Shown here piece after piece: positions 33,557-37,748 of a stretch of 64,000 nucleotides of DNA (position 1 is its first letter; each line of letters begins with the position of its first letter). The DNA lies in contig NZ_JABEDH010000003.1 of the NCBI RefSeq assembly GCF_029285175.1, forward strand, positions 248,001-312,000. Reading direction: 5' to 3'. This DNA is from Sulfitobacter sp. M05. GTDB lineage: Bacteria > Pseudomonadota > Alphaproteobacteria > Rhodobacterales > Rhodobacteraceae. The notes beneath the pieces were generated by a model that ran no database searches, was not told the DNA's origin, and saw only the letters and a program-made list of their open reading frames with translations. The translations under genes and the position numbers were made by a program.

Positions 33557-34876
33557 ATGACTGCGCCCAAAAAGCTGTTTATCAAAACCTATGGCTGTCA
33601 GATGAATGTTTATGACAGTGAACGCATGGCCGAAGCGCTGGGCGGTCAGGGGTATGTCGAAACATCGCAGGCTGAAGATGCCGATATGATTTTGCTCAAC
33701 ACCTGCCACATCCGTGAAAAAGCTGCGGAAAAAGTATATTCCGAGCTGGGTCGGCTGAAGCCCTTGAAGGATGCCAAACCTGATTTGAAAATCGGGGTTG
33801 CGGGATGTGTGGCGCAGGCCGAAGGGGCCGAGATCATGCGCCGCCAACCGGCGGTCGATCTGGTGGTGGGGCCGCAAAGCTATCATCGCTTGCCCGAGAT
33901 GGAGACAAAGATTCGCGATGGCGGCACCGCGCTCGACACGGATTTCCCCGCAGAGGACAAGTTTGAACATCTGAAATCCCGCCCCAAGGCGCAACGTGCC
34001 CCAGCTGCGTTTTTGACCGTTCAGGAAGGCTGTGACAAATTCTGTGCCTTCTGCGTCGTGCCCTATACCCGCGGTGCTGAGGTCAGCCGCCCCGCCAGCC
34101 GCGTCTTGCAAGAGGCCCGCGATCTGGTGGAACGCGGCGTGCGCGAAGTGACGCTTTTGGGTCAGAACGTAAACGCCTATCACGGGGCAGGGGATACCGG
34201 TGATATGACGCTGGCCCAGCTCATTCGCGCCTTGGCCAAGGTCGACGGGTTGGAACGTATCCGTTACACGACCAGCCATCCAAACGACATGGACGATGAT
34301 CTGATTGCTGCCCACGGCGAAGTGCCCGAACTGATGCCCTATCTGCATCTGCCGGTGCAATCCGGGTCCGACCGGATTCTCAAACGGATGAACCGCAGCC
34401 ATACGGCAGAAAGCTATTTGCGGCTGCTGGAGCGGATCCGTGCCGCGCGGCCTGATATCATCCTCTCAGGTGATTTTATCGTCGGCTTCCCGGAAGAGAC
34501 CGACGCCGATTTCGAGGCCACAATGGATTTGGTGCGAGAAGTGAAATACGGCTATGCCTATTCCTTCAAGTATTCGACCAGACCGGGCACGCCGGCGGCG
34601 GAACGCCCCTTGGTCGATGCCGAGGTGGCGGACGCGCGTTTACAACGTCTGCAAGCGCTGATCACTGGCCATCAACGCGAAATTCAGGAAAGCATGGTCG
34701 GGCGAGATGTTTCGGTTCTGATCGAACGGACGGGGCGTGAAAGCGGGCAGATGCTGGGCAAATCCGAATATTTGCATTCGGTCCATATTGATGAGTGTAC
34801 TGCACAGATCGGCGACATCCTGAATGTCCGCGTTGTGGATGCAAAAACGAACTCTCTCACCGCGCGGTCGCTCTGA
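33557..34876 (+). CDS. miaB: tRNA-2-methylthio-N6-dimethylallyladenosine synthase
   Basis: A 439-residue radical-SAM methylthiotransferase that converts i6A37 to ms2i6A37 in tRNAs reading UNN codons. The N-terminal cluster cysteines lie in [23 protein letters not shown] and AGCVAQAEG; the radical-SAM triad is in CDKFCAFC (about residues 159-166); a TRAM RNA-binding domain closes the protein (about 375-438). Length and order are standard for MiaB. Confidence 0.96.
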
Positions 34877-35091: not shown

Positions 35092-35679
35092 GTGGTGAAC
35101 ACAATCTCTAAAGCAATCCGCGCGGTGGCGAGCCTGTCACTTGCAGCAGTGATTGCCGTGCCGATGGCCCTCGCGCCAGCAAATGTCGATGCGCAAACCC
35201 CGTCACAGGCCGGCCGCGACAAGGGGGTCTATACGCCGACGATCTGGGTTGATCCCGATGGCTGCGAGCATTGGGTGATGGATGATGGTGCCGAAGGATA
35301 TATGACACCGCATACAACCCGTCAGGGCATTCCGGTTTGCCGCCGTGGCAATGTTTGTGGGGTGATGAAATCGGATCAGTTCTTTGCCACTGACAGCTAC
35401 CGTATCCACAAAGCGGGCAAGGCGCGACTGAAAGAGTTTTTCGCAAAAACCGGCGCTGTTTCATACATCATTACCGGTCATACCGACAGCCGCGCCTCTG
35501 ATGCCTACAACATGAAACTCAGCTTCAACCGTGCGAATGCTGTTGCGGCAATTGGGGCGGCAAGCGGTGCACGCATTGCTGACGTACGTGGCTATGGCGA
35601 ACGGATGCCGGTTGCCGCAAATAACTCTTCGCATGGGATGGCCAAAAACCGTCGCGTCGAAATCATCTGCATTCGCTAA
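35092..35679 (+). CDS. OmpA-family periplasmic protein with an N-terminal Cys/Trp module
   Basis: A protein of about 195 residues with a Sec signal peptide (hydrophobic AVASLSLAAVIAVPMALAPA, residues 11-30). Residues 51-83 form a small module IWVDPDGCEHW...DDGAEGY...PVC, also found in the neighbouring lipoprotein. Residues 95-195 are an OmpA-C peptidoglycan-binding domain with ITGHTDSRASDAYNMKLSFN and the closing NRRVEIICIR. It should tether the envelope to murein. The start is one of two adjacent GTG codons (35092 or 35095) after AAAGGAAA; an upstream GTG at 35068 lacks such a site. It is cotranscribed with the lipoprotein gene 11 bases downstream. Confidence 0.85.
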   Translation: MVNTISKAIRAVASLSLAAVIAVPMALAPANVDAQTPSQAGRDKGVYTPTIWVDPDGCEHWVMDDGAEGYMTPHTTRQGIPVCRRGNVCGVMKSDQFFATDSYRIHKAGKARLKEFFAKTGAVSYIITGHTDSRASDAYNMKLSFNRANAVAAIGAASGARIADVRGYGERMPVAANNSSHGMAKNRRVEIICIR

Positions 35680-35690
35680 GGGGACGTGTC

Positions 35691-36017
35691 GTGATCAAAA
35701 CCAAAATCCTAACCGTGTTGGCCTGCGTTGCAGGGCTGTCCGCTTGCGGTGATATCGAAACTGGCGTGCCATTCCAGGGGTTGCCGTCTGACAAATCCGT
35801 TGACCGTGGCGTCAACGCCCACCACCTGAGCACACTTCAGGCCGGTATCTGGGTCGATCCGAATGGCTGTGACCACTGGATCATCGACGATGGTGTCGAG
35901 GGTTACCTGTCTGCCCGTCTGGACAAGTATGGCAAGCCCGTCTGCTCCGGTGTTGCGCCCCCCACCCACACGGTTGGCGACTTCAAAGGTGGTTCCAATA
36001 TCCCGGATCCAAACTGA
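35691..36017 (+). CDS. Small lipoprotein sharing the Cys/Trp module of its OmpA neighbour
   Basis: A 108-residue lipoprotein: the lipobox LSAC places the acylated Cys at residue 19. Residues 53-85 (IWVDPNGCDHW...DDGVEGY...PVC) match residues 51-83 of the upstream OmpA-family protein at about half of the positions, including both Cys. It starts at GTG 35691 after GGGGACG. The remaining sequence is low complexity. The pair probably arose by duplication of the module; its role in the envelope is unknown. Confidence 0.78.
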   Translation: MIKTKILTVLACVAGLSACGDIETGVPFQGLPSDKSVDRGVNAHHLSTLQAGIWVDPNGCDHWIIDDGVEGYLSARLDKYGKPVCSGVAPPTHTVGDFKGGSNIPDPN

Positions 36018-36042: not shown

Positions 36043-36075
36043 GGGCCGGGGTGTTATACGCCCCGGCCCTTTCTG
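36043..36075 (+). terminator. Intrinsic terminator after the lipoprotein gene
   Basis: GGGCCGGGG (36043-36051) pairs perfectly with CCCCGGCCC (36061-36069), followed by TTTCTG. It lies 25 bases beyond the lipoprotein stop and separates it from phoH. Confidence 0.8.
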
Positions 36076-36147: not shown

Positions 36148-37158
36148 TTGCCCCCAAGCGACCAAATCACAGCACCGCCACCGGCTGATCCAATTGTGCT
36201 TGAATTTGCCGACAACAGGCTGCTGATTGACCTGTGCGGTGCCTATGACGCCCATCTGGCTGCAATCGAAAAGGCGCTGATGGTCCAAATCATTCGGCGC
36301 GGCAACCAGTTGAGCATTCTGGGCGACACGGACAGCAAACAGCAGGCCGAAGCTGTGCTGAACACGCTTTACGCGCGTCTGGAAAGTGGCCGATTGGTGA
36401 CCCCGGCCGAAGTCGAAAGCCTGTTGCGTATGGAGCGGCCAAAGCCCGGCACGCGGCCACAGGTTGGCGGCCAGCTTGAAATGCCGGTGGGCGATACGCT
36501 TGAAATCCAGACCCGCAAAAAACGTGTCGAGCCGCGCACCGATGCGCAAAAAGCCTATGTCAAAGCTCTGTTTGACGACGAGCTGACCTTTGGCATCGGG
36601 CCTGCCGGTACGGGCAAGACCTATCTGGCTGTCGCGGTCGGGATCAACATGTTCATCGGCGGCCATGTGGACAAGATCATCCTTAGCCGCCCTGCGGTGG
36701 AAGCGGGTGAAAAACTCGGCTACCTGCCCGGCGACATGAAAGACAAGGTCGATCCCTATATGCAGCCGCTCTATGATGCGCTGAACGACTTTCTGCCAGG
36801 CAAGCAACTGGCCAAGCTGATCGAGGAAAAACGCATTGAAATCGCCCCTTTGGCCTTTATGCGGGGCCGTACTCTGTCCAATGCATTTGTGGTGCTGGAC
36901 GAAGCCCAGAACGCCACCTCCATGCAGATGAAAATGTTCCTTACCCGGCTTGGCAAGGGCTCTCGTATGGTTATCACAGGGGACCGCACCCAAATCGACC
37001 TGCCGCGCGGCGTGCCGTCGGGCCTTGCTGACGCTGAACGTTTGCTGGCGCAGATCCCAAAAATAAGCTTCAATTATTTCACCTCCAAAGACGTGGTGCG
37101 CCACCCTCTGGTTGCGGCCATCATTGAAGCTTATGAAGCAGATACGGGTTCCGCATGA
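36148..37158 (+). CDS. PhoH-family ATPase
   Basis: A 336-residue PhoH-like protein: N-terminal KH-like region, then a RecA-like ATPase with Walker A GIGPAGTGKTYLA (about residues 149-161) and Walker B VVLDEAQNATSMQ (about 249). PhoH-like proteins accompany YbeY in many bacteria and are thought to act in RNA metabolism. The start appears to be TTG 36148, placed 6 bases after AAGGAGC; no ATG or GTG fits as well. ybeY, corC and lnt follow on the same strand. Confidence 0.9.
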   Translation: MPPSDQITAPPPADPIVLEFADNRLLIDLCGAYDAHLAAIEKALMVQIIRRGNQLSILGDTDSKQQAEAVLNTLYARLESGRLVTPAEVESLLRMERPKPGTRPQVGGQLEMPVGDTLEIQTRKKRVEPRTDAQKAYVKALFDDELTFGIGPAGTGKTYLAVAVGINMFIGGHVDKIILSRPAVEAGEKLGYLPGDMKDKVDPYMQPLYDALNDFLPGKQLAKLIEEKRIEIAPLAFMRGRTLSNAFVVLDEAQNATSMQMKMFLTRLGKGSRMVITGDRTQIDLPRGVPSGLADAERLLAQIPKISFNYFTSKDVVRHPLVAAIIEAYEADTGSA

Positions 37159-37244: not shown

Positions 37245-37748
37245 ATGCAGAACATGGACATCGACATAGAAGATCCCCGCTGGGCTGCACTCGATATTGA
37301 GGCGCTGTGCCAGCGGGCCGTGGCCACCACCTTGACATATCTGGGGCTGCCACTTGAGGCGGAAATCAGCATTCTTGCCTGTGACGATGCGCGCATCGCC
37401 GCGCTTAACGCAGAGTTTCGTGCCAAAGCGACGCCCACCAATGTGTTGAGCTGGCCCAGCGAAGAACGCGCGGCAGAGGTTCCGGGCGGCACCCCCATGT
37501 CGCCGGAGCCGGACCCCGGCGGCATGATCGAACTGGGCGACATCGCCATTAGCTATGACACCTGCGTCGCCGAAGCCGCCGCAGCAGGCAAGGAGACGGC
37601 CCATCACATTACCCATCTGATCATCCACGGAACCCTTCATTTGCTGGGTTATGATCACGAAACTGAGCAAGATGCTGCCTTGATGGAAGGTTTTGAGGTG
37701 GAAATACTTGGTAAATTGGGTCTGGATGACCCATATAGGGAATCGTAG
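37245..37748 (+). CDS. ybeY: Endoribonuclease YbeY
   Basis: A 167-residue metalloprotein for 16S rRNA 3'-end maturation and ribosome quality control. The zinc-binding motif is [15 protein letters not shown] (about residues 126-140), preceded by the conserved ITHLIIHG, and the start of the fold contains [22 protein letters not shown] 37245 and ATG 37254 are both possible. It lies between phoH and corC, the order found across alphaproteobacteria. Confidence 0.93.

Follow-up and report, generated by a model that had tools for sequence, protein, structure and literature searches.

DalA, an outer-membrane lipoprotein of Rhodobacter sphaeroides, had the transpeptidase RSP_1199 in its precipitate and was proposed to modulate the predicted L,D-transpeptidases encoded at neighbouring locus numbers (PMC10470522). 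According to the same study, R. sphaeroides and other Alphaproteobacteria have no known homologues of Lpp and LpoA/LpoB (PMC10470522). The locus described here may bear on how the outer membrane is attached to the wall in such bacteria. Copper was reported in another study to inhibit L,D-transpeptidases (PMC8263019). DUF6440 (PF20037), to which the module described below is most likely related, is named by Pfam as a family of unknown function.

We analyzed a stretch of 64,000 nucleotides from Sulfitobacter sp. M05 (the window), in which an OmpA-family gene and a lipoprotein gene lie between miaB and phoH (Table 1). The initial annotation had noticed a segment shared by the two proteins with the same spacing, at residues 51-83 and 53-85 respectively, and this was borne out. 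The OmpA-family copy (IWVDPDGCEHWVMDDGAEGYMTPHTTRQGIPVC, residues 51-83 when counted from an alternative in-frame GTG at 35092 instead of the GTG at 35095) and the lipoprotein copy (IWVDPNGCDHWIIDDGVEGYLSARLDKYGKPVC, residues 53-85) were collinear over 33 residues without a gap, and BLASTP of the two proteins against each other gave an E value of 2e-15, with the alignment stopping at the final Cys. The segment is the same module in both proteins and not a chance likeness. The lipoprotein continues into a conserved C-terminal tail bearing G-x-[FY]-K-x-G. When the Sulfitobacter sp. M05 genome was searched with a 36-residue module query, only the two window copies were recovered at E up to 10; a third, more distant copy surfaced with broader queries. 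Across 20 aligned rows covering the two forms, the residues that did not vary were P, G, C, H, W, D, D, G, E, G, G, and C; across 32 more diverse rows they were G, C, W, D, G, E, G, and C, and across 19 rows including relatives only G-C plus a later G and C. The proposal of a discrete module with two conserved Cys on exported proteins stood, with one amendment to its description as a Cys/Trp module: Trp did not define the wider family.

Table 1. Features of the miaB-phoH region, in window coordinates.
Feature	Coordinates	Strand	Description and basis
miaB	33557..34876	+	Upstream neighbour marking the site of the pair; tblastn to relatives, annotation in Ruegeria pomeroyi DSS-3
OmpA-family gene, 194 aa	35095..35679	+	Signal peptide (by eye), module, C-terminal OmpA peptidoglycan-binding domain; without lipobox
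Module copy 1, I50-C82 of the OmpA-family protein	35242..35340	+	ORF translation, alignment, BLASTP
Lipoprotein gene, 108 aa	35691..36017	+	Lipobox LSAC ending at C19 (by eye), linker, module, tail
Module copy 2, I53-C85 of the lipoprotein	35847..35945	+	ORF translation, alignment, BLASTP
Intrinsic-terminator-like hairpin	36043..36069	+	Between the lipoprotein gene and phoH; 12-pair stem with 10 G-C pairs, then TTTCTGT
phoH	36148..37158	+	Downstream neighbour; Ruegeria pomeroyi DSS-3 has an annotated PhoH in this position

The OmpA-family protein matched PF00691 over residues 96-186 with 47.2 bits (cut-off 27.2), and its solved relatives were OprF, PA0833, and YfiB. Aligned to OprF, it retained HTD and RAN, residues that take part in wall binding. 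By this score and these residues, it is classed as a member of the OmpA C-terminal family. Inspection by eye found no Cys in its signal region, and hence no Pal-type lipobox. The lipoprotein is predicted to be lipidated, based on LSAC at residues 16-19 and similar lipoboxes in relatives. AlphaFold models were built from alignments of 53 (OmpA-family) and 46 (lipoprotein) rows drawn from the window and related loci. The lipoprotein model was poor (mean pLDDT 57), and the module part of the OmpA-family model reached pLDDT 52-62. When the latter model was used in a PDB fold search, the best 50 matches listed were all OmpA-like domains. Since the two genes are spaced by 11 bp and a strong hairpin (-28.5 kcal/mol, z -4.5; 2 hairpin-type sites found in the region versus 1.4 expected) lies 3' to the lipoprotein gene, the pair looks like one two-gene transcript.

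Downstream of phoH, the ORFs beginning at 37245, 37784, and 38680 have the sizes expected for ybeY, corC, and lnt, judged by size only. The annotated order in Ruegeria pomeroyi DSS-3 is miaB, OmpA family, hypothetical, PhoH, ybeY, hemolysin family, and lnt, with two extra hypothetical ORFs in between. In that strain, the segment running from miaB to lnt, pair included, sits on a megaplasmid (L219 1873-9340), and in a Thioclava strain miaB to phoH was found on a plasmid. A search of the open-licence literature found no paper on Roseobacter with OmpA, lipoprotein, and miaB together.

The module is not confined to this pair of genes, as the initial annotation had allowed it might be. When 149 genomes from the same family were searched with the lipoprotein as query, 93 gave matches. 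Exactly two matches were seen in 89 of these genomes, three in 3, and one in 1, gene type being confirmed for only part of the matches counted; in the single-match genome, the OmpA gene reaches the end of the available stretch. A broader profile recovered the same 93 genomes strongly, and 5 further ones only at E 0.004-0.07. The profile search in Alphaproteobacteria suggested at the outset yielded strong matches in 5 of 385 class genomes, all from the same family and none outside it. Matches of the window-module profile in other families of the class (E 0.003 to 1) were partial and were taken as noise. A scan of named genomes returned at least 583 relatives. Among the 80 loci kept, both genes were adjacent in all 80 (79 by pattern, and the last, L099, by tblastn), and the names were rhodobacteral or unspecific with one exception, L090. 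That record, titled Enemella evansiae TN21-6, presumably an actinobacterial name, bears a rhodobacteral locus and is perhaps a mislabelled or mixed assembly.

We further looked at the 56 family genomes that lack the pair, 53 of which were matched in a search with phoH. Loci from 20 of the 56 were read, and miaB and phoH were both in view in 15: the gap between them was 85-237 bp in 11 and 0.5-2.8 kb in 4. The other 5 had no miaB in view, and neither ompA nor the lipoprotein was matched at E 1e-3 in any of the 20. Judged from these gene orders, the pair is a present-or-absent two-gene cassette.

The initial annotation knew no named domain for the module. Its score indeed never reached the DUF6440 cut-off of Pfam, but DUF6440 was matched below threshold repeatedly, and this match was backed by profile comparison and, weakly, by structure search. 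With an E limit of 10, Pfam returned DUF6440 alone for the window lipoprotein, at 14.8-15.5 bits versus a gathering cut-off of 26.5; the OmpA-family module copy alone gave no match to the DUF6440 Pfam model. The family was matched by 37 of 46 aligned rows (window included; close relatives of one another), all below the cut-off, with a best E of 0.0094. The lipoprotein's two best PHROGs, both weak, were phrog_11767 (E 0.046) and phrog_8801 (E 0.08), which hold DUF6440 phage proteins. For profile comparison, we used a DUF6440-like alignment of 14 rows, of which 10 scored above the Pfam cut-off and the other 4 (L179, L203, L206, and L207) fell short of it; L208 was omitted as a near copy of L207. 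Aligned to it with hhalign, the window-module profile scored 95.9% (P 6.5e-9, 32 columns). The true score exceeded all 450 column-shuffled controls and the reversed control, and shuffles preserving 7-column blocks climbed to 93.6%, so part of the score is due to short motifs. In a structural search of BFVD with the lipoprotein model (mean pLDDT 57), DUF6440 proteins ranked first (probability 0.99, E 0.043) and fourth. Moreover, the DUF6440 Pfam model matched 7 of 299 phylum genomes, 4 of them above the cut-off. In these four proteins and L179, G-C-x-Y and a later G and C stood at matching places, and the motif followed a signal or membrane segment; L177 and L178, also among the 7, were left out of the 14-row alignment as the motif was not seen in the frames inspected. 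Sequence comparison thus makes the window module most likely a divergent, distant relative of DUF6440, and not a member by the Pfam cut-off (about 15 versus 26.5 bits), so that the existing Pfam domain is found here as kin and not as an identity.

Homology is likely on this evidence. The module could instead be unrelated, a Rhodobacteraceae-specific invention that came to resemble DUF6440 by converging on a small beta hairpin bearing GC and GxPxC motifs. Such convergence would fit a DUF6440 score that stays under the cut-off throughout, 7-column shuffles that come near the true profile score, and strong matches in just the 5 class genomes of one family. We consider it improbable, given that Pfam, PHROGs, and structural search each put DUF6440 proteins first for the lipoprotein, that proteobacterial DUF6440 proteins found by the Pfam model share the Cys pair at similar spacing, and that a third branch, described below, resembles both DUF6440 and the window module.

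A viral scan with the window-module profile found no relative; single-protein viral scans gave 0, 7, and 1 relatives, which were excluded from all counts. Sinorhizobium phage matches of the module were dismissed, as the alignment overran the annotated gene end at E of about 2. One proteobacterial DUF6440 query, run against plasmids, matched nothing. In PDB sequence searches, the DUF6440-like profile found no solved structure and the window-module profile fragments only. Among phages, SPO1 gp34.55 of Bacillus (L209 681-971), annotated merely under that name, and SP-15 SP15_117 (L202 1378-1635), annotated as hypothetical, each have a lipobox by eye, a DUF6440 score above the cut-off, and the Cys pair. 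No paper naming DUF6440 or gp34.55 was found in the open-licence literature. In a Pseudomonas phage (L207; 19.1 bits, below the cut-off), ninB and ninG flank a DUF6440-like gene lacking both Cys, and the same holds for a P. aeruginosa plasmid record (L208).

Both Cys were present in 11 of the 14 DUF6440-like rows, and inspection by eye showed a membrane segment, signal, or lipobox in each of these 11 proteins, which makes a disulfide the best reading of the pair. Neither Cys was found in Lactococcus bIL310 Orf6, which has no membrane segment, or in Pseudomonas phage Marin, whose protein has one and is exported, DUF6440-like, and below the cut-off; the remaining row, from Enterococcus, had a single unmatched Cys. 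Since 9 of the 14 rows came from Cys-bearing queries, the count is biased toward the Cys pair. Among rows recovered by the Pfam model, both Cys were present in 5 of 5. Counting Cys in 159 named proteins proved circular, as the search pattern demanded both Cys, and that result was discarded. From the alignments, we infer that the module Cys pair likely forms a disulfide. The OmpA-family protein has two more Cys, C88 and C192, whose invariance in 53 rows would allow a predicted second disulfide in the OmpA domain. We deemed it unlikely that D-x-[DN]-G-C forms a site for calcium or another metal, because the acidic residues and His differ among relatives.

A plasmid search with an OmpA-form query gave a weak match (E 0.5) that brought up a third branch of the module: a lipoprotein with one module on a Jannaschia plasmid, adjoining L,D-transpeptidase and Dsb genes. 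The Jannaschia protein had no Pfam match. Used as a query against plasmids, its module matched 178 records at E up to 0.1, of which 153 had at least 60% identity; the weak ones may include chromosomal-type modules, many records are near copies, and 63 come from one genus. Of the 178, 105 were typed conjugative. The third-branch profile matched 33 of 149 family genomes, including Sulfitobacter sp. M05 (contig C15), and its module was present in 8 of the 56 pair-less genomes. Compared by profile, the third branch scored 81.7% against the window module and 83.0% against DUF6440, both weaker than the link between those two. Both scores exceeded 200 shuffles each (blocks of 1 and 4 columns), with narrow margins over the 4-column shuffles (25.4 versus 23.7 and 26.5 versus 24.0).

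The neighbour of the third-branch gene was almost constant. In 12 plasmid records read in context (several of them alike and not independent), the next gene was a convergent L,D-transpeptidase in all 12, and metal-transport genes were in view in 9; of the other three, L222 had Dsb genes only, and L232 and L234 had neither. One context with neither showed superoxide dismutase, Dps-like, and siderophore-receptor genes. Similarly, when one locus was taken from each of 30 of the 33 positive genomes (including the Sulfitobacter sp. M05 locus that supplied the query), an L,D-transpeptidase was 15-207 bp from the third-branch gene in 28 of 30, convergent in 26 and on the same strand in 2; L239 and L265 had none in view. 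The neighbour in Sulfitobacter sp. M05 qualifies as an L,D-transpeptidase by its YkuD score (72 bits, cut-off 23.4), and it holds HGT...SSGCVRM, which we take to be the L,D-transpeptidase motif. On contig C15, three L,D-transpeptidases flank the third-branch lipoprotein in an island (L228 7635-13768), and four of the ten YkuD matches in this genome are on that contig. By eye, the island also contains a DsbA-like protein and a copper-type P-ATPase. The small lipoprotein carrying a related form of the module beside an L,D-transpeptidase is a new observation. Hitch-hiking within mobile islands could account for this association. The window contains no relative of any of the three C15 transpeptidases, so the two contexts may differ in function.

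The metal-transport genes in 9 of 12 plasmid contexts and, by eye, in Sulfitobacter sp. M05 would be explained if the Cys pair, with a nearby His in some branches, bound copper or another metal instead of forming a structural disulfide. The reported inhibition of L,D-transpeptidases by copper (PMC8263019) would suit such metal handling. We find it unlikely nonetheless: His varies between branches, phage lipoproteins and the chromosomal pair have the two Cys as well, and 3 of 12 plasmid contexts have no metal-transport genes in view (one Dsb only, two neither). That the module came from phage or plasmid lipoproteins blocking superinfection or entry, a role then kept by the chromosomal pair, would agree with lipobox-bearing DUF6440 proteins in Bacillus phages SPO1, SP-15, and Goe16 and with the conjugative typing of 105 third-branch plasmid records, but is very unlikely, as the pair is fixed at one place over much of the family and fused to a wall-binding domain, and the constant neighbour of the third branch is a cell-wall enzyme and no transfer gene.

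We are about evenly confident in a disulfide-held, DUF6440-related docking module at the interface of outer membrane and peptidoglycan as the full best explanation; its function is read from gene context. The fusion to a wall-binding domain, the lipoprotein made together with it, and the lipoprotein beside a wall cross-linking enzyme have a docking or regulatory part as their simplest common reading. A small exported beta module held by a disulfide would have diverged from DUF6440 and entered the Rhodobacteraceae cell envelope, serving as the docking part where the outer membrane meets peptidoglycan. In the window pair, one copy would belong to a soluble OmpA-family protein that binds peptidoglycan and the other to a lipoprotein with a lipid anchor, both expressed as one two-gene unit. 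Contact between the two modules, or of both with a shared partner, may then join the lipid anchor to the cell wall, so that the pair would resemble a Pal protein divided over two polypeptides. The short lipoprotein of the third branch probably positions, activates, or protects the adjacent L,D-transpeptidase, as proposed for DalA. A wider version is doubtful: that the family, recruited from a phage or plasmid domain, comprises outer-membrane lipoprotein parts controlling L,D-transpeptidases and wall attachment, with the metal-island version protecting or activating the enzyme and the chromosomal pair acting as a split Pal-like tether via like-to-like modules. Copper inhibition may explain the metal islands of the third branch. 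As copper is reported to inhibit L,D-transpeptidases (PMC8263019), the extra transpeptidase and Cys-pair lipoprotein in metal islands raise a direct experimental question. Together, the constant L,D-transpeptidase neighbour and the fusion to a wall-binding domain suggested a testable role for the Cys-bearing exported form of DUF6440.

Compared with DUF6440 (PF20037; phrog_8801, phrog_11767, and phrog_14094), the window module is of similar length and shares with Cys-bearing members the early G-C-x-[YHW] and the terminal G-x-P-x-C, but its D-[DG]-G-x-E-G stretch is longer by about 3 residues, it lacks the Thr before G-C, and one copy is fused to an OmpA domain. The third branch resembles DalA in being a Rhodobacterales lipoprotein near L,D-transpeptidases (PMC10470522). 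The DalA candidate of Sulfitobacter sp. M05 (L276 1541-2371), picked by position only, is a lipoprotein between two L,D-transpeptidases that, unlike the third branch, has a CAP domain; a transpeptidase adjoining it is 62% identical to one of the three on contig C15. LpoA/LpoB, which activate cell-wall synthases, offer the same idea of a lipoprotein acting on a wall enzyme (PMC10470522), whereas in the present case a YkuD enzyme would take the partner's role. Like Pal and other OmpA-like peptidoglycan-binding proteins (PF00691), the window protein has a full OmpA domain; it differs from Pal in its additional N-terminal module and in having no lipobox, the lipid anchor being on the neighbouring protein.
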